64,000 bases of DNA from Acidobacteriota bacterium (GTDB lineage: Bacteria; Acidobacteriota; Vicinamibacteria; Vicinamibacterales; SCN-69-37), in contig JADYYY010000019.1 in the NCBI GenBank assembly GCA_020853395.1, forward strand, positions 248,001 through 312,000. Reading direction: 5' to 3'. Position numbers and translations under genes: made by a program. Under the pieces are notes generated by a model that saw nothing but the letters and a program-made list of their open reading frames with translations, was not told the origin of the DNA and made no database searches. Shown here one piece after another: positions 2,519 to 20,549 of this stretch (position 1 is the first letter of the stretch; the number at the start of each line of letters is the position of its first letter).

Positions 2519-4348
2519 ATGAGCATTCTCCGCAACGTCTTGATCGCCGCCGCATCGCTCGCGTACTTCCAGCACATCTGTCGTGTGTCCTCATGGAGGC
2601 TGCCGGTGGACGGCCTCGGCACCTGGCTGGACTCCTACTTCATCAACTTCCTGCTGGAGCACTGGTACCTGAGCCTCCCGCACCCGTGGACCGCGGCCTC
2701 GCCGCCGATGTACTTCCCGGTGCAGGGCACGCTGGGGTACTCACACGGGCTGATTCTCTTCGTGCCGTTCTACAGCCTGGCGCGCCTGTGGTACGAGCCG
2801 TTTCAAGCCAACACGCTGATGCTCCTGCTGGTGCTCGAAATCGGCGCGCTGTGCCTCTACGGCGTGCTGCGCCGGCACCTGAAGCTCGGCGTCGTGAGCG
2901 CTGCGGCGCTCTCGATGCTGTTCATCACGTCGCAGAACATCGTCAACCACACGCTGGCGTTGTGGAACCAGCGCGCGTCGGTGTACCTCGTGCCGCCTGT
3001 CGTGTGGATGGCGATCGAAGCGACGCGGCATCCCGGCCGCACCGGCGATGCCCTGGCGTTCCTCTCCGCCTGTGCGGCGGTGCTGCTGTTCGTCCAGGAC
3101 TTCTACACCGCCGCGTTCGCGGCCCTGCTGGGCGGGCTGATGCTCGCCGGCGTCGCGGTCCATGAGCGATCGACGATGTCGGCGGACATCGGCGGCGTGT
3201 GGCGGGAAGTGCGCCGCGGCCTGCACGCACGTCCGGCCACGCGTGCCGACCGGCGCTGGCTCATGGCGGCGCTCGCCTGCGCCGCGGCCGCGCTCATCGT
3301 CGCGGTCGCGCCGCTCGATCGCACGCTGATCGGGCCGTTTCGGCTGTCGGCCAGGAACCCGATCCGCGCCGTGCAGCTCGCCGTGCTGTTCGCTGCCGTG
3401 GCGCTGCGATACCCCATCCGGAACGCCGTCAGGGCGACGGTGCAGTTGCTGGCCGTCTCCTACCGAATACCACTCCGCCGCCTCGCGGCCATCGTGGTAG
3501 GCGTCGCGGTCGGCTCGGCGATCTTCGCCTGGATCTACCTTCCGACCTACCGGGAGCACCGGGCGTTTCCAGACGAGCATCTCTGGGCGATGCTCACGCG
3601 CGTCGAAAGGATTCCTTGGCTGGATCCGCCGGCCTTGCTCCGCACGTTCATCGTGTACGAGAGCGCGCGGACGTTCGGGCTCGCCGTCGTGCTCGCGGCG
3701 ATGGTCTCGCTGCCCGGCACCAGCCGATTCAGCCGGTTCATCGCGTGGTGGTTCGTCGGCGTGTCGGCGATCGCCGCTGCCGCGCCGCTGGCCGTCGGCG
3801 GCGTGTCGGTGTGGCAGGTCTTGTTCGGATGGATGCCCGGGCTCTCGATCATCCGCGACCCGACGCGAATCATCTACCTGTACGAGCTGATGGCCGTGCT
3901 CGTCGCCGGCGTGCTCCTGTCACGTGAGTCACGGCGGCTGGTGCGCTTCGGCGTCACCGCGGTGGCGCTGGTGATGGTCGTGACGGGCTGGAACGCACGT
4001 CAGCTTCCGTTCGATCGGCGTGCCGACGTGTTCGAGCGATGGGTCGAGGCCCCCATCGCGATTTCGTCGTCGTGCCGCAGTTTCTACGTGAAGGGCGCCT
4101 CGCCGGAGTACATGGCGCGATTCGACAACAGGTGGGGTCAGTACGCGATCGACGCGGGCTTCATCGCGCTACGGTCCGGGCTGCCCACCTTGAACGGCTA
4201 CAGCGCATGGCAGCCGACCGGCTGGAACCTCGCGAATCCGCAGCAACCTGGCTACCTCGCGCACGTCAGCGACTGGATCGAGCAGCAACGGCTGACCGAT
4301 GTCTGCGAACTGGACATCGACCGTCGGGTCATGAGACCGATCGAATGA
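2519..4348 (+). CDS. Polytopic membrane protein, putative GT-C-like glycosyltransferase
   Basis: This 609-residue protein has roughly ten to twelve hydrophobic segments spread over residues 5-470 and a soluble C-terminal tail of about 120 residues. It begins 18 bases after the GT2 gene and is probably co-transcribed. The order of long membrane part, a conserved I(R)DPTR / VPAR-like patch and a tail with an NGYSAW motif parallels the protein at the left edge (NGFSGY). The two are therefore probably divergent relatives within one surface-glycan locus. No catalytic motif can be named with certainty. A GT-C transferase using a polyprenyl-phosphate sugar is the best guess from the neighbourhood. 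Confidence 0.7.
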   Translation: MSILRNVLIAAASLAYFQHICRVSSWRLPVDGLGTWLDSYFINFLLEHWYLSLPHPWTAASPPMYFPVQGTLGYSHGLILFVPFYSLARLWYEPFQANTLMLLLVLEIGALCLYGVLRRHLKLGVVSAAALSMLFITSQNIVNHTLALWNQRASVYLVPPVVWMAIEATRHPGRTGDALAFLSACAAVLLFVQDFYTAAFAALLGGLMLAGVAVHERSTMSADIGGVWREVRRGLHARPATRADRRWLMAALACAAAALIVAVAPLDRTLIGPFRLSARNPIRAVQLAVLFAAVALRYPIRNAVRATVQLLAVSYRIPLRRLAAIVVGVAVGSAIFAWIYLPTYREHRAFPDEHLWAMLTRVERIPWLDPPALLRTFIVYESARTFGLAVVLAAMVSLPGTSRFSRFIAWWFVGVSAIAAAAPLAVGGVSVWQVLFGWMPGLSIIRDPTRIIYLYELMAVLVAGVLLSRESRRLVRFGVTAVALVMVVTGWNARQLPFDRRADVFERWVEAPIAISSSCRSFYVKGASPEYMARFDNRWGQYAIDAGFIALRSGLPTLNGYSAWQPTGWNLANPQQPGYLAHVSDWIEQQRLTDVCELDIDRRVMRPIE

Positions 4349-4414
4349 CCGCCGTGCTCGGCGTCTGACGGTCTCGGACGTGCGAGGAGGAGTCGGGGTG
4401 GTACGGGCCAGCGG

Positions 4415-4975
4415 TCAGGACGCGACCGCGACCATCGCCGGCCGGAGGACCTCGCCGCCGATCAGGTAGCCCGGCCGGATCACGCCGGTGATTCGGCCGG
4501 GCGGTGCCGAGTCATCCGCGGGCGTGCTGGCCACCGCCTCGTGCACGGCCGGATCGAACGGCTGGCCGATCGGATCGATCCTCGCGATCCCGAGGCCGTC
4601 GAGCACGTTCAGGAACTGCTGCCGGACGAGGGAGACCCCCTGGACGAAGGGCTCGTCGGTGCGGCCGGAGGCCGCGGCGAGCGCACGATCGAGGTTGTCG
4701 AGCACCTCCAGGAAGCCGCCGAGCATCGCCCGGCGGCCGCGCTCGACGTCCTTCGCGACCTCTTTCCGGAGCCTGGCGCGCGCCTGCTCGAACTCGTCGG
4801 TCGCGCTCCGATATCGCGCCAGCAACTGCTGCAGCTCGCTGTCCTTGGCCGCGAGCCGGGCCTCCAGCTCCTCGACGTAGGTGGGCTTCAGGCTGCCGGG
4901 GGCGGTGTCGCCGCCCGCCTCCTCGCCACGTACCCAGAACCGGCGATCGGTGACCTTCAACTCAGACATCGACAT
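4415..4975 (-). CDS. grpE: GrpE, nucleotide exchange factor of DnaK
   Basis: The 186-residue product has the GrpE plan: an N-terminal tail, a long coiled coil (about residues 33-85, ELEARLAAKDSELQQLLARY onward), and a beta-rich C-terminal head. The head carries the family signature FDPAVHEAV and ends with RPAMVAVA. GrpE releases ADP from DnaK in the cytoplasm. It is the last gene of a minus-strand operon, starting 30 bases after clpA, so a co-chaperone and a Clp protease are made together. No dnaK or dnaJ is next to it, which is less common for grpE. The start could be either of two nearby ATGs (4975 or 4969). Confidence 0.93.
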   Translation of the reverse strand: MSMSELKVTDRRFWVRGEEAGGDTAPGSLKPTYVEELEARLAAKDSELQQLLARYRSATDEFEQARARLRKEVAKDVERGRRAMLGGFLEVLDNLDRALAAASGRTDEPFVQGVSLVRQQFLNVLDGLGIARIDPIGQPFDPAVHEAVASTPADDSAPPGRITGVIRPGYLIGGEVLRPAMVAVAS

Positions 4976-5005
4976 CTGGCAATCTGCGCCCCAAACGGCG
5001 GTTTG

Positions 5006-7273
5006 CTACCTGGCCTGGTAGTCGAAGGTCAGCCTGTCGTCGGCGACGCCGATCGTGACGGTGCCGCCGTGCTCGAGCTTGCCGAAGAGCAGCTCGTCGG
5101 TGAGCGGATCGCGGACCTCGCGCTGGACGACGCGGGCGAGCGGGCGCGCGCCGTAGACCGGGTCGTAGCCTTTCGCGGCGAGCCAGGTCCGCGCCTCCGG
5201 CGTGAGCGTGATCGCCACGTGCTTCTCGGAGAGCTGCGCCTCGAGCTGCAGGATGAACTTCTCGACGATGGTCTCCATCACGTCGGGCGAGAGGCGGCCG
5301 AAGGTGACGATCGCGTCGAGCCGGTTGCGGAACTCAGGTGAGAACACCCGCTCGAGCGCCGCGCGCGATTTGCCCTCCGCCGCCCGGCGCGCGCCCTCGT
5401 CGCCGCCCGAGACGCGCTCGGAGAACCCGATGCTCTGCGCGCTCAGCTCGCGGGAGCCGGCATTGGACGTGAGGATGAGCACGACGTTCCGGAAGTCGGC
5501 TTTCCGGCCGGTGTTGTCGGTGAGCGTCGCGTGGTCCATCACCTGGAGCAGGATGTTGTAGATGTCCGGGTGCGCCTTCTCGATCTCGTCGAGCAGCACG
5601 ACGCTGTACGGGTGCGTGCGCACGGCGTCGACGAGCAGGCCGCCTTGCTCGAAGCCGACGTAGCCCGGCGGCGCGCCGATGAGCCTGGCCACGGCGTGCT
5701 TCTCCATGTACTCGCTCATGTCGTACCGGATGAACTCGTTGCCGAGCTGGATCGCGAGCTGCTTTGCGAGCTCCGTCTTGCCCACGCCCGTCGGCCCGGT
5801 GAAGAGGAACGAGCCGGCCGGGCGCTCCGGCGCGCCGAGCCCCGCGCGCGACCGCTTGATGGCCTGGGCCACCAGGTGGACCGCTTCCTTCTGACCGAAC
5901 ACCACCCGCTCGAGCGACTCCTCGAGCGTCCGAAGTCGCTCGCGATCGGACGATGACGCCTGGCGGGCCGGGATGCGCGCCACGCGGGCGACCGTGACCT
6001 CGATCTCTGGCGCGTCCACGACGGACGCCTTCGACAAGCGCGCCACCGCGCCGGCTTCGTCCATCAGATCGATCGCGCTGTCGGGCAACCGGTAGTCGCG
6101 CAGGTGCCTGGCGGCGAGCCGCGCGGCCGCCTCGAGCGCCGCCTCGGTGTAGGTGACGTCGTGGTGCTCCTCGTAGCGGCTGCGGAGGCCGGTGAGGATC
6201 CTGACGGTTTCCTCGATCGACGGCTCGTCGATCACGATCCGCTGCAGCCGGCGGGCGAGCGCGCGGTCCTTCTCGATCTGCTTGAACTCTTCGAACGTCG
6301 TCGACCCGATGATCCGCAGATCGCCCGCCGTGAGGATCGGCTTGATCATCGTCGCCAGGTCCATCGTGCCGCCGGCCGTGGCGCCGGCGCCGACGGTCGA
6401 GTGGATCTCGTCGATGAACAGGATGGCGCGAGGCCGCGCGCCGAGCGCGCGGATGATGGCCTTGAACCGCTCCTCGAAGTCGCCGCGGAACCGCGTGCCG
6501 GCGAGCAGCGCGCTCGAATCCAGCGAGAACACCTCGGCGTCCTTCAGCGGCTCCGGCACGTCCTCGGACAGCAGCTTCGCCGCCAGGCCTTCGGCCATGG
6601 CGGTCTTGCCGACGCCGGCTTCGCCGACGAACACCGGGTTGTTCTTGCGGCGGCGGCAGAGAACTTCGATTGTGCGCTGCAGCTCCTCGGTCCGCCCGAT
6701 GAGCGGATCGAGCAGACCCATCCGCGCGCGGTCGGTGAGGTTCTGGCAGTACGCCGCGAGCGGATCGCGCGGCGAGGCGCCGCCGTCGGCATCGGGCGAG
6801 GGCGTCTCGCCGGAGCGGGCGCCGGCGGCATCCGCGGAGGCCGCGTGCGTGATCCCGTGCGAGATGTACTCGAGGATGCGCAGCCGCGTGACGCCTTCCG
6901 CCTCGAGCACGCGCGCGGCCTGCGACTTCGGCTGGAGCAGAATGGCCGCGAGGATGTCGCCGGCGTTGACCTCGGCCCGCTGCGCGCTCTGCACGTGGAG
7001 CACGGCGGTGGACAGCACGCGCTTGAAGGCTGCGGTCTGGTCCGGTTCGCGCTCCTGGCCGCGGCGCAGTTGCTCGACGGACGAGTCGAGGTAGTCGTTG
7101 AGCTCGCGGCGGAGGCGCGGCAGGTCGGCGCCGCACGCCTCGAGAATCCGCTCGCCCTCCGGATCGTGCGCGAGCGCGTAGAGCAGGTGCTCGAGCGTCA
7201 GATACGCATGCCGGCGCGCGACCGCCTCGCGGTACGCGATGGTGAGCACGATTTCGAGCGAAGCGGAGAACAC
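5006..7273 (-). CDS. clpA: ClpA, ATPase subunit of the ClpAP protease
   Basis: This 755-residue protein has the ClpA layout. A double Clp-N repeat spans residues 1-145. AAA domain 1 has Walker A GEAGVGKT at about 217-224 and Walker B ILFIDEIH at 284-291. AAA domain 2 has GPTGVGKT at 493-500 and VVLLDEIEKAH at 558-568. There is no long middle coiled-coil as in ClpB, which separates the two. It unfolds proteins and feeds them to ClpP in the cytoplasm. The GTG start at 7273 gives the usual N-terminus (MFS.SLE..L..AYREA) and has a GAGGG ribosome site just upstream. It lies 27 bases after clpS, its adaptor. clpP itself is not in the window. Confidence 0.95.
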   Translation of the reverse strand: MFSASLEIVLTIAYREAVARRHAYLTLEHLLYALAHDPEGERILEACGADLPRLRRELNDYLDSSVEQLRRGQEREPDQTAAFKRVLSTAVLHVQSAQRAEVNAGDILAAILLQPKSQAARVLEAEGVTRLRILEYISHGITHAASADAAGARSGETPSPDADGGASPRDPLAAYCQNLTDRARMGLLDPLIGRTEELQRTIEVLCRRRKNNPVFVGEAGVGKTAMAEGLAAKLLSEDVPEPLKDAEVFSLDSSALLAGTRFRGDFEERFKAIIRALGARPRAILFIDEIHSTVGAGATAGGTMDLATMIKPILTAGDLRIIGSTTFEEFKQIEKDRALARRLQRIVIDEPSIEETVRILTGLRSRYEEHHDVTYTEAALEAAARLAARHLRDYRLPDSAIDLMDEAGAVARLSKASVVDAPEIEVTVARVARIPARQASSSDRERLRTLEESLERVVFGQKEAVHLVAQAIKRSRAGLGAPERPAGSFLFTGPTGVGKTELAKQLAIQLGNEFIRYDMSEYMEKHAVARLIGAPPGYVGFEQGGLLVDAVRTHPYSVVLLDEIEKAHPDIYNILLQVMDHATLTDNTGRKADFRNVVLILTSNAGSRELSAQSIGFSERVSGGDEGARRAAEGKSRAALERVFSPEFRNRLDAIVTFGRLSPDVMETIVEKFILQLEAQLSEKHVAITLTPEARTWLAAKGYDPVYGARPLARVVQREVRDPLTDELLFGKLEHGGTVTIGVADDRLTFDYQAR

Positions 7274-17657: not shown

Positions 17658-18854
17658 ATGGACGCACACGAGGACGGGCAGATGCCGGCGGCCGACCGGC
17701 TCGATACGCTGCGCCAGGAAATCGACGGCATCGACGACGCGTTCGTCGACCTGCTGGCCCGGCGCCAGCAGGCGATCAAGCGCGTGGCGGCCGTCAAGTC
17801 CAGGACCGAGGCGCCGCTCCGCGACGTCGAGCGCGAGTCGCAGCAGATGGCCCGGCTCGTCGAGCGTGCCCGAGCCCACGGCCTCGACGAGATGTTCGTC
17901 GTCCGGCTGTTCCGCGAGATCGTGGACCTGTCGGTGCGGACGCAGGAGCTGCACCTCGGCGGCGTGCACCCGGGCGGCGTGCCGGCCAGGCCGATCACCG
18001 TCGTCTACCAGGGCGCCGAAGGCGCGTTCAGCCACATCGCGGCGCGCCGGTTCTTCGGGCCTCGTCCGGGCCCGGTGACGTACCGCGGCGTGCAGACGTT
18101 TCGCGGCATGCTCGAAGAGGTGCGATCCGGGGCGGCCGACTACGCGATGCTGCCGATCGAGAACACGACGTCGGGCTCGGTGCACGACGCGTACGACGCG
18201 CTGTCGCACACCGACCTCGCCATCGTCGGCGAGGAGGTGCTGCGGATCGAGCTCTGCCTGATCGGCGTGGCCGACGTCCCGCTCGAGAGCATCCGGCAGG
18301 TCTACTCGCACCCGCAGGCGATCTACCAGTGCACCGCGTTTCTCGCCTCGCTGCCGCAGGCCGCCGTCGAGTCGTTCATCGACACGGCCATGAGCGTCGA
18401 GCGGGTGAAGCAGGAGCACGACCCGACGCACGCGGCCATCGCCAGCGCGGAAGCCGCCGCGCTCCACGGCCTGCACATCCTGCGGCGCGACATCGCGAAC
18501 CATCGCGAGAACTACACGCGCTTCCTCGTGATCGCGCGCGAGCCCGAGCCGTGGGATCCGCGCGTGCCGTGCAAGACGTCGGTGATGTTCGTCATCCAGC
18601 ACCGCGAAGGCGCGCTGCTCGCCTGCCTGAACGTGCTCGCCGGCCACGGCCTGAATCTCACGAAGCTCGAGTCGCGGCCGCGTCCGGGGCGGCCGTTCGA
18701 GTACCTGTTCTACGTCGAGTTCGAGGGCAACGTCGCCGAGCCGCCCGTGCAGCAGGCGATGAACGAGCTCGCCGAGCTGACGCTGTCGCTCAAGATCTTC
18801 GGGTCGTACCCGGCGAGGACGATGCCGAGAGGCCAGGCGGAGGACGCGTCGTAG
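17658..18854 (+). CDS. pheA: Bifunctional chorismate mutase / prephenate dehydratase (P-protein)
   Basis: This 398-residue protein combines three parts. An AroQ-type chorismate mutase helix bundle spans residues 12-92 (LRQEIDGIDDAFVDLLARR). A prephenate dehydratase domain spans about 112-295 (YQGAEGAFSH, LPIENTTSGSV, NHRENYTRFLVI). A C-terminal ACT domain (about 303-385, with GLNLTKLESRP) binds phenylalanine for feedback control. It performs the last two committed steps to phenylpyruvate. GGAGAG precedes the ATG by a few bases. The P-protein is encoded alone and divergent from ilvD. Confidence 0.95.
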   Translation: MDAHEDGQMPAADRLDTLRQEIDGIDDAFVDLLARRQQAIKRVAAVKSRTEAPLRDVERESQQMARLVERARAHGLDEMFVVRLFREIVDLSVRTQELHLGGVHPGGVPARPITVVYQGAEGAFSHIAARRFFGPRPGPVTYRGVQTFRGMLEEVRSGAADYAMLPIENTTSGSVHDAYDALSHTDLAIVGEEVLRIELCLIGVADVPLESIRQVYSHPQAIYQCTAFLASLPQAAVESFIDTAMSVERVKQEHDPTHAAIASAEAAALHGLHILRRDIANHRENYTRFLVIAREPEPWDPRVPCKTSVMFVIQHREGALLACLNVLAGHGLNLTKLESRPRPGRPFEYLFYVEFEGNVAEPPVQQAMNELAELTLSLKIFGSYPARTMPRGQAEDAS

Positions 18855-18860
18855 CGACAA

Positions 18861-18881
18861 CGCCAGGAGGGCATCCTGGCG
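18861..18881 (+). terminator. Hairpin after pheA, possible terminator
   Basis: The arms CGCCAGGA and TCCTGGCG are perfect 8-base complements around a GGGCA loop, six bases after the pheA stop. No T-run follows, so if it ends transcription it does so weakly or with Rho. It could instead protect the 3' end of the mRNA. Confidence 0.35.
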
Positions 18882-18995
18882 GCGCGACTCCGGCCGCGCG
18901 TGCCCGGCGCGCGCATCGTCTCTCTACGGCCGTTCGCCGCCAATCGGTTCGCCAACCGAACCGGCCAGCACTCGACGCGTCGTAATAGCTCGCCG

Positions 18996-19017
18996 CCTCG
19001 GACGTATCTGTCCGAGG
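18996..19017 (+). promoter_or_regulatory. Hairpin overlapping the ribosome-binding site of the ECF sigma gene
   Basis: Perfect 8-base arms CCTCGGAC and GTCCGAGG surround the loop GTATCT. The 3' arm contains the first half of the GAGGAG Shine-Dalgarno (19014-19019), which lies five bases before the GTG start at 19025. When folded, the stem would hide part of the ribosome site. As DNA it could also be a symmetric operator for autoregulation. Both readings are inference. Confidence 0.5.
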
Positions 19018-19024
19018 AGACGTC

Positions 19025-19612
19025 GTGTTCAGTCGAGACATCACCGCGGGGCCCTCTCTCGGGCTGACGTCACGGAGCGCGCCCGCCGCGCGCCCGGACG
19101 TCGAGCGCGTGTTCCGCGACGCGTGCGACACGCTGCTGCCGCCTGTCCACCTCTACGTGCGGTATCGAGTCGGCCGCGGCGCGGCGGACGATCTCGCCGC
19201 GCAGGTGTTCCTGAAAGCCTTGGATCGTCTCGACAGCTTCGACTCGGCCAAAGGCGACATGCAGACGTGGGTCTTCGGCATCGCCAGGAACGTCGTCCGG
19301 GATCACCTCCGCGCCGGCCGCCGCTGGCGATGGCTGCCCGTCGAGTGGCTGAGCCATCGAGCGAGCACCGGCCCCGATCCCGAGCGGACGGCCATCGACG
19401 GCGAGCAGCATCGGCACCTCGCCGAAGCGCTCGCGACGCTGTCGGACCGCGAACGTGACGTGCTCGGGCTGAAGTTCGGTGGCAGCCTCACGAATCGCGC
19501 GATCGCGTCGCTGATGGGTCTCTCCGAGAGCCACGTCGCCGTGGTCGTCTACCGTGCTCTCGGAAAGCTCCGTCAACGTCTGGAACAACGACAAGGGGTG
19601 CGTCATGCGTGA
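19025..19612 (+). CDS. ECF-type RNA polymerase sigma factor
   Basis: This 195-residue protein has sigma-70 region 2 (about residues 20-95: DDLAAQVFLKALDRLDSFD, then MQTWVFGIARNVVRDHLR). Region 4 (about 140-190) has a helix-turn-helix, LSDRERDVLGLKFGGSLTNRAIA. No region 3 is present, as in ECF factors. The GTG start has GAGGAG five bases upstream. The next gene starts eight bases before its stop and encodes a membrane protein, the classic sigma/anti-sigma pairing. The signal and promoter targets are unknown. Confidence 0.92.
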   Translation: MFSRDITAGPSLGLTSRSAPAARPDVERVFRDACDTLLPPVHLYVRYRVGRGAADDLAAQVFLKALDRLDSFDSAKGDMQTWVFGIARNVVRDHLRAGRRWRWLPVEWLSHRASTGPDPERTAIDGEQHRHLAEALATLSDRERDVLGLKFGGSLTNRAIASLMGLSESHVAVVVYRALGKLRQRLEQRQGVRHA

Positions 19613-20549
19613 TGCCGATGCGGCTCGTCTGCTCGAGGAAGCGCTGTCGAATGGCGCGGCCGGCCCCGTGGGCGGCCCGCCAGGACTTGCAGGCCGTCTC
19701 GAAATCGCCGCCGAGCTCAGGGCCGCCAGCGCCGCGTGGGCCTCGGATGTGCCCGCTGCTGCGGGCACGTTCGTCATCGCGCATCGACAGGCCATCCCGA
19801 GCATGGCGCCGCCCGCGGTTCCCTTCTTCTGGCATCGTGCCCTCATCGCGACACCTGGGGTCGTCCTGCTGCTCGTGTCGCTGATGACGGCGATCCCCGG
19901 TGCCGGCAAGACGTTCGCCCGTCCGCTCGTGCAGATCCTGCAGTCCGTGCTCGTCGGCGGACACACGGAGCTCTCGCAGTTCGGGCCGCAGGATGCCGGA
20001 GAGGTCGACAGGACGTTGGGCAGGTTTCGTTCAGACCTCGCTGCCGGAAGCCACTGGTTCGTGCACACCGGCTATGTCGGGATGGGAGGCAACGTCCCAC
20101 CGGGCAAGTCTTCGCAGGCCGTGCGCATCGAGACCGTGGCTGAGCTGACGAGGGTGTCCGACGTGCACATCCACGCACCCAGAGTGGGTTCGATCGGTCT
20201 TCCCGCGGAGTTCACGTATGCCTTCGTCGCGCCCGACGGCATGGTCATGGCGTTCTTCGGTGAGGGCGACAACGAGGTCCTCATGATCGAAGCGCCCGTT
20301 GGCAACGGCCTCTCCGTGGGGTTCTCGCGAGTCATCGTCGGTCCGGAAGGGTCCGTCAGCCCGGAGCTGCGCACGGAGACGGTGACGGCCGATGGGCAGG
20401 ACCTGGTCTGGGATCCAGATCCGACAGGGAGGATGCCGCTGACCTCGTCGCTCCACTGGGAAGCCGACGGCGTCAGCTACTCGATCTTCGGGCGATCGCT
20501 GACCAAGGAGCGAGCGGTCCAGATATTCGAATCGCTCGAGCCGCTCTAG
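19605..20549 (+). CDS. Putative membrane anti-sigma factor with DUF4367-like outer domain
   Basis: The 314-residue product starts at ATG 19605, overlapping the sigma stop by eight bases. Residues 1-70 are a cytoplasmic segment without a clear zinc-finger (no HxxxCxxC). One transmembrane helix follows near residues 78-95 (ALIATPGVVLLLVSLMTAIPG). The remaining 200 residues are exported. The C-terminus (SSLHWEADGVSYSIFG...KERAVQIFESL) resembles the DUF4367 motif found at the ends of sigma-linked membrane proteins. The overlap, topology and position argue for an anti-sigma role, with the outer domain sensing an envelope signal. This remains inference because the N-terminal binding domain is not recognisable. 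Confidence 0.65.
   Translation: MRDADAARLLEEALSNGAAGPVGGPPGLAGRLEIAAELRAASAAWASDVPAAAGTFVIAHRQAIPSMAPPAVPFFWHRALIATPGVVLLLVSLMTAIPGAGKTFARPLVQILQSVLVGGHTELSQFGPQDAGEVDRTLGRFRSDLAAGSHWFVHTGYVGMGGNVPPGKSSQAVRIETVAELTRVSDVHIHAPRVGSIGLPAEFTYAFVAPDGMVMAFFGEGDNEVLMIEAPVGNGLSVGFSRVIVGPEGSVSPELRTETVTADGQDLVWDPDPTGRMPLTSSLHWEADGVSYSIFGRSLTKERAVQIFESLEPL

Follow-up and report, generated by a model that had tools for sequence, protein, structure and literature searches.

A candidate autoregulatory promoter overlapping the hairpin at the ribosome site of an ECF sigma factor gene in an Acidobacteriota genome

Genes and elements at the locus

The window (the whole stretch of 64,000 nucleotides that was analysed, positions 248,001 to 312,000 of contig JADYYY010000019.1 from an Acidobacteriota bacterium) contains a sigma factor gene that begins just after a perfect hairpin and overlaps a second gene at its end. 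The elements discussed below are as follows.

18982-18988, forward strand: proposed -35 element GTAATAG, placed by a position and spacing like those of GTGATA(C/G) in eight of nine class homologues
18996-19017, forward strand: hairpin with perfect 8-bp arms (18996-19003 and 19010-19017) and the loop GTATCT
19003-19009, forward strand: proposed -10 element CGTATCT, 14 bases after the -35 element, as in the relatives
19014-19019, forward strand: Shine-Dalgarno-like GAGGAG, recognised from its sequence and ending five bases before the GTG at 19025
19016, give or take about 2 bases, forward strand: predicted transcription start, derived from the start mapped for Tt-RpoE1
19025-19612, forward strand: ECF sigma factor gene (195 aa, GTG start, TGA at 19610-19612), with Pfam Sigma70_r2 and Sigma70_r4
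19605-20549, forward strand: partner gene (314 aa), a candidate single-span membrane anti-sigma factor judged from its position, a membrane span seen by eye and a sub-threshold match to DUF4367

The open frame after the hairpin had been called an ECF sigma factor gene in the initial annotation, and the domain profiles agree. The Pfam listing of the protein holds Sigma70_r2 (1.2e-12, at 37-100) and Sigma70_r4 (7.5e-10, at 135-184) and no further sigma domain, as expected of an ECF factor, and the NCBIfam model sigma70-ECF scored 84.6 bits against a cut-off of 42.9. The top NCBIfam match was TIGR02952 (BldN family) at 108.5 bits, yet this is well under the curated cut-off of 206.45 and the protein is therefore not assigned to that family. 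The best solved relative of the sigma family profile was 6dxo_A, which we take to be the BldN-RsbN complex.

The partner gene starts at an ATG (19605) inside the sigma gene, and the two share 8 bases. According to PMC8103513, ECF operons are mostly autoregulated and an anti-sigma gene is often co-transcribed. The position of the partner suggests that it is probably a membrane anti-sigma factor. The protein had no accepted Pfam family match and no TolB-like domain, and its match to DUF4367 (E 0.052, 14.5 bits) was below the cut-off of 22.1. The partners encoded in the class relatives have a layout that is alike by eye. A relationship with those proteins was rejected, as BLAST gave nothing better than E 2.5 and the hhalign probability was 0.3% against a profile built from the partners of 8 of the 12 selected relatives (the picks at L014 and L017 were excluded as unreliable).

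The hairpin itself stands as first described: its arms, the GTATCT loop, the overlap with the Shine-Dalgarno (SD) sequence and the spacing to the GTG are all correct in the sequence, and the GAGG of GAGGAG is common to the right arm and the SD. A bare hairpin of this size is not rare. Within the window there are 35 perfect hairpins (stem of at least 8 bp, loop of 3-10; one place is counted twice, with two loop sizes), whereas 15 dinucleotide shuffles averaged 25.8 (range 13-31), and shuffling the 91-nt leader gives folds that are just as good (z 0.16). Hairpins overlapping the SD are rarer, arising in 0.13% of 200,000 simulated leaders in which the -35, -10, SD and start were held fixed, a figure that applies to a single gene selected post hoc.

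A promoter-like motif in distant homologues

We found no close relative carrying the sigma gene, which at E 1e-15 was present in none of the 13 other genomes of the family. Two of these 13 have a match to pheA at 1e-60, neither of which has the sigma, partner or ThiF gene within the flank examined. Across the 193 genomes of the class, at least nine besides its own have a sigma homologue at E 1e-18, and a protein-profile search of 396 genomes of the phylum gave matches at E 1e-30 in at least nine, three of which were already known (its own, G192 and G018); at most 16 candidates per genome were scored in the class search and at most 8 in the phylum search, so homologues may be missed. The relatives are distant; across the aligned protein, ten of them share 33-41% identity.

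Among the homologues found, the nearest comes from outside the class: it is L009 from a Chloroflexi genome, 46% identical in the best segment. In a protein tree the window sigma factor groups with L009 (support 81/80), a placement that carries a long-branch warning, and we therefore do not claim transfer from Chloroflexi. The gene that follows the L009 homologue (3485-5908) codes for a protein of 808 aa that contains LysM and PD40 repeats and recalls the TolB-type anti-sigma factor of Tt-RpoE1.

The leaders of eight of the nine class homologues found contain the motif GTGATA(C/G)-N14-CGTATA, its first base lying 35-37 bases 5' of the start codon. The motif was absent from the ninth, L022, which is the weakest match (matrix score -0.6). 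When the exact pattern was scanned across the 193 class genomes, 14 sites were obtained in 13 genomes as compared to six with the reversed control. Eight of the 14 are the homologue leaders; the other six are not at homologues found, and each overlaps an open frame. One of these six, a second exact site in relative genome G191 (L046, 1501-1527), lies 47 bases 5' of a frame that by eye resembles an FtsX-type permease, which is a possible additional target of the sigma factor.

Two held-out homologues from outside the class, in G251 and G240, had not been used in defining the motif. Both carry an exact GTGATAC-N14-CGTATA, with scores of 23.2 and 25.4, at 68 and 107 bases 5' of the chosen start codons. 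The motif was absent from four weak homologues of the phylum (L052-L055, E about 1e-31; best score 5.3). A search of genome contigs added five loci, L009-L013: L009 has the near form GTAATAC-N14-CGTATT (matrix score 17.0), L010 only a weak form (6.5), and L011-L013 no motif (best 2.8, with about 76 bases 5' of the start covered for L013). Among the seven other sigma-matching loci of the own genome, the best score was 5.2 for the four that could be scored (L002, L004, L007 and L008), as L003, L005 and L006 gave no local match to score.

The window site, GTAATAG-N14-CGTATCT, scored 16.3 with a matrix built only from the eight relatives and ranked above every other place on the two strands of the window (next 12.2). 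No place scored as high in 2 Mb of random sequence with the make-up of the window, and seven did in 2 Mb with the make-up of the leader. A widened pattern, drawn up with the letters of the window site in view, had this site as its only exact match in the own genome; allowing one mismatch gave four more, compared to none in the control. The window departs from the consensus of the relatives in both boxes (GTA for GTG and CGTATC for CGTATA), and the -10 box is 22 bases from the start codon as opposed to 14-16 in the class relatives.

The classical ECF promoter has AAC in the -35 and CGT in the -10, hallmarks later abandoned as defining, as PMC8103513 describes. Here CGT is present in the -10, while AAC is absent from the -35 both in the window (GTAATAG) and in the relatives (GTGATA(C/G)). 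A generic ECF-like promoter could also be seen by eye slightly upstream (CGAACC at 18957-18962 and CGTC at 18978-18981). It was set aside in favour of the conserved motif, which starts at the base that follows and is backed by the relatives.

From this motif we infer dependence on the sigma factor, and we consider it quite likely that this site serves the ECF sigma factor operon as its autoregulatory promoter. It looks like a feedback promoter of a mostly ordinary kind. The motif offers a testable promoter sequence for a group of ECF sigma factors that extends over this class and another class of the phylum, with a closely similar form in a genome of the Chloroflexi.

Predicted start and the place of the hairpin

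A mapped promoter with a similar arrangement is that of Tt-RpoE1 from Thermoanaerobacter tengcongensis, an ECF sigma factor that transcribes its own gene and is followed directly downstream by the gene for its anti-sigma factor, Tt-TolB. In PMC3397946, the C of CGTC lies at -13 and a G that is important in the -35 lies at -34, 21 bases apart. The -35 to -10 register of the window and of its relatives is likewise 21 bases, and in both systems the -35 begins with GT and the -10 with CGT. The two also differ. The determinants of the Tt-RpoE1 promoter (PMC3397946) are tGTTAC-N16-CGTC, compared to GTAATAG-N14-CGTATC in the window; it was mapped and mutated, whereas the window promoter is predicted only; and its partner is Tt-TolB, while the window partner is without a TolB-like domain in Pfam.

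By this register the sigma mRNA is predicted to begin near 19016, its leader of about 9 nt opening with GGAG at the SD. The eight class relatives would have leaders of 1-3 nt and would thus be almost leaderless, and leaders of about 34 and 73 nt are calculated for L049 and L050, respectively. Since the window matches the layout of the relatives, its proposed -10 box, CGTATCT, consists of the final base of the left arm and the whole loop of the hairpin. A start near 19016 would therefore leave most of the hairpin out of the mRNA made by the sigma factor.

The initial annotation had suggested that translation could depend on opening of the stem and had named two findings that would count against its reading, a start downstream of 18996 and pairing that is not kept in relatives. 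The predicted start is downstream of 18996. Moreover, a stem of at least 5 bp with a loop of 3-10 across the -10 box was seen in none of the 13 relatives (the eight class homologues, L009, L010, L022, L049 and L050, all distant; the best-scoring though weak motif position was used for L010 and L022) and occurs in the window only.

These data bear on the proposal that the hairpin is an RNA thermometer or a stem opened by a factor, in which the main sigma mRNA would carry the hairpin and the SD would stay hidden until heat or a protein opened it. The stem does take in the GAGG of the SD and is predicted to be stable (-14.2 kcal/mol for the isolated 8 bp at 37 C), and in an RNA from 18860 the predicted accessibility of the start codon climbs from 0.25 at 20 C to 0.46 at 65 C. 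However, accessibility of the SD in the same RNA is nearly flat over that range (0.16 to 0.18), and across RNAs starting at 18860, 18945 and 18990 it goes from 0.15-0.21 at 37 C to 0.18-0.27 at 65 C. Even at 70 C, the stem taken alone remains stable (-7.5 kcal/mol). By prediction, then, the stem does not open in the physiological range, and the conserved promoter predicts a start 3' of the left arm. On the promoter, the relatives and the predicted accessibility, we rejected control of translation by stem opening as extremely unlikely.

A second proposal placed the function in the DNA, as a binding site for the sigma factor or a partner. One part of this survives, as what is likely the sigma -10 box does lie there; the palindrome does not, as conservation lies in the -35/-10 pair. 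A dimeric regulator bound to the palindrome could block the promoter, and a perfect 8+8 repeat around the -10 box is well placed for repression. On the other hand, the palindrome has no other exact match in the own genome, its 35 sites at up to 3 mismatches compare to 34 with the reversed control, and no counterpart was seen in the 13 relatives. We rejected a palindromic operator on these grounds and regard it as very unlikely.

Instead, polymerase carrying the sigma factor would read GTAATAG as the -35 and CGTATCT as the -10 and start near 19016, giving an mRNA with about 9 nt of leader from the SD to the GTG. The candidate anti-sigma partner probably keeps the sigma factor inactive, and release of the sigma factor would set up a positive feedback loop. 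In this self-made mRNA the inverted repeat that surrounds the -10 box would not form, and it is probably a functionless by-product.

The overlap of proposed promoter and ribosome site

The hairpin is most likely a by-product of the overlapping promoter or, less likely, a filter against read-through like that of phage T4 gene e. In the leader of that gene, as given in PMC3014915, the promoter lies within the 5' strand of a stem that hides the SD, and its transcripts are without the stem. Likewise, an RNA that started upstream of the window hairpin would hide the SD, and the mRNA from the promoter inside the hairpin, lacking the left arm, would be translated. If this were true, well-translated mRNA would come only from the sigma factor itself and stray read-through would be kept from firing the positive feedback.

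The geometry fits, with the proposed -10 (19003-19009) in the 5' strand and loop and the SD in the right arm. The predicted accessibility of the SD at 37 C, low in the longer RNAs, is about 0.6 in RNAs from 19014 or 19016, and the low frequency of hairpins over the SD in the simulated leaders also favours a filter. In contrast, shuffling the left arm did not single out the 5' strand as what hides the SD in longer RNA: 26 of 200 and 73 of 200 shuffles were at or below the real accessibility, and the shuffled means were 0.244 compared to 0.159 for the real arm (start 18860) and 0.233 compared to 0.211 (start 18945). At 37 C the short RNA leaves the start codon no more accessible (0.09-0.12) than the long ones do (0.09-0.26), and the arrangement was not seen in relatives. 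The T4 effect was shown by experiment (about 100-fold) and is predicted in related phages (PMC3014915), while the window shares the geometry alone, which is not conserved and for which the arm-shuffle control is unfavourable. We therefore consider a filter very unlikely. As a by-product, the hairpin is an example of how such a structure can arise at a ribosome site from an overlapping promoter.

Among the literature titles listed we recognised no ECF gene with a hairpin acting as thermometer or against read-through, and no leaderless autoregulated ECF genes; we make no claim that either is absent in print.

Three further repeats lie in the region upstream. A perfect 8-bp hairpin with a loop of 5 (18861-18881) directly follows the pheA stop, with no T run next to it, and might limit read-through into the sigma operon. 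The same intergenic region contains a perfect 7-bp inverted repeat, CGGTTCG/CGAACCG (18945-18963). Finally, an exact 11-base direct repeat, GACGCGTCGTA, occurs at the end of pheA (18843-18853) and over the start of the proposed -35 element (18974-18984).
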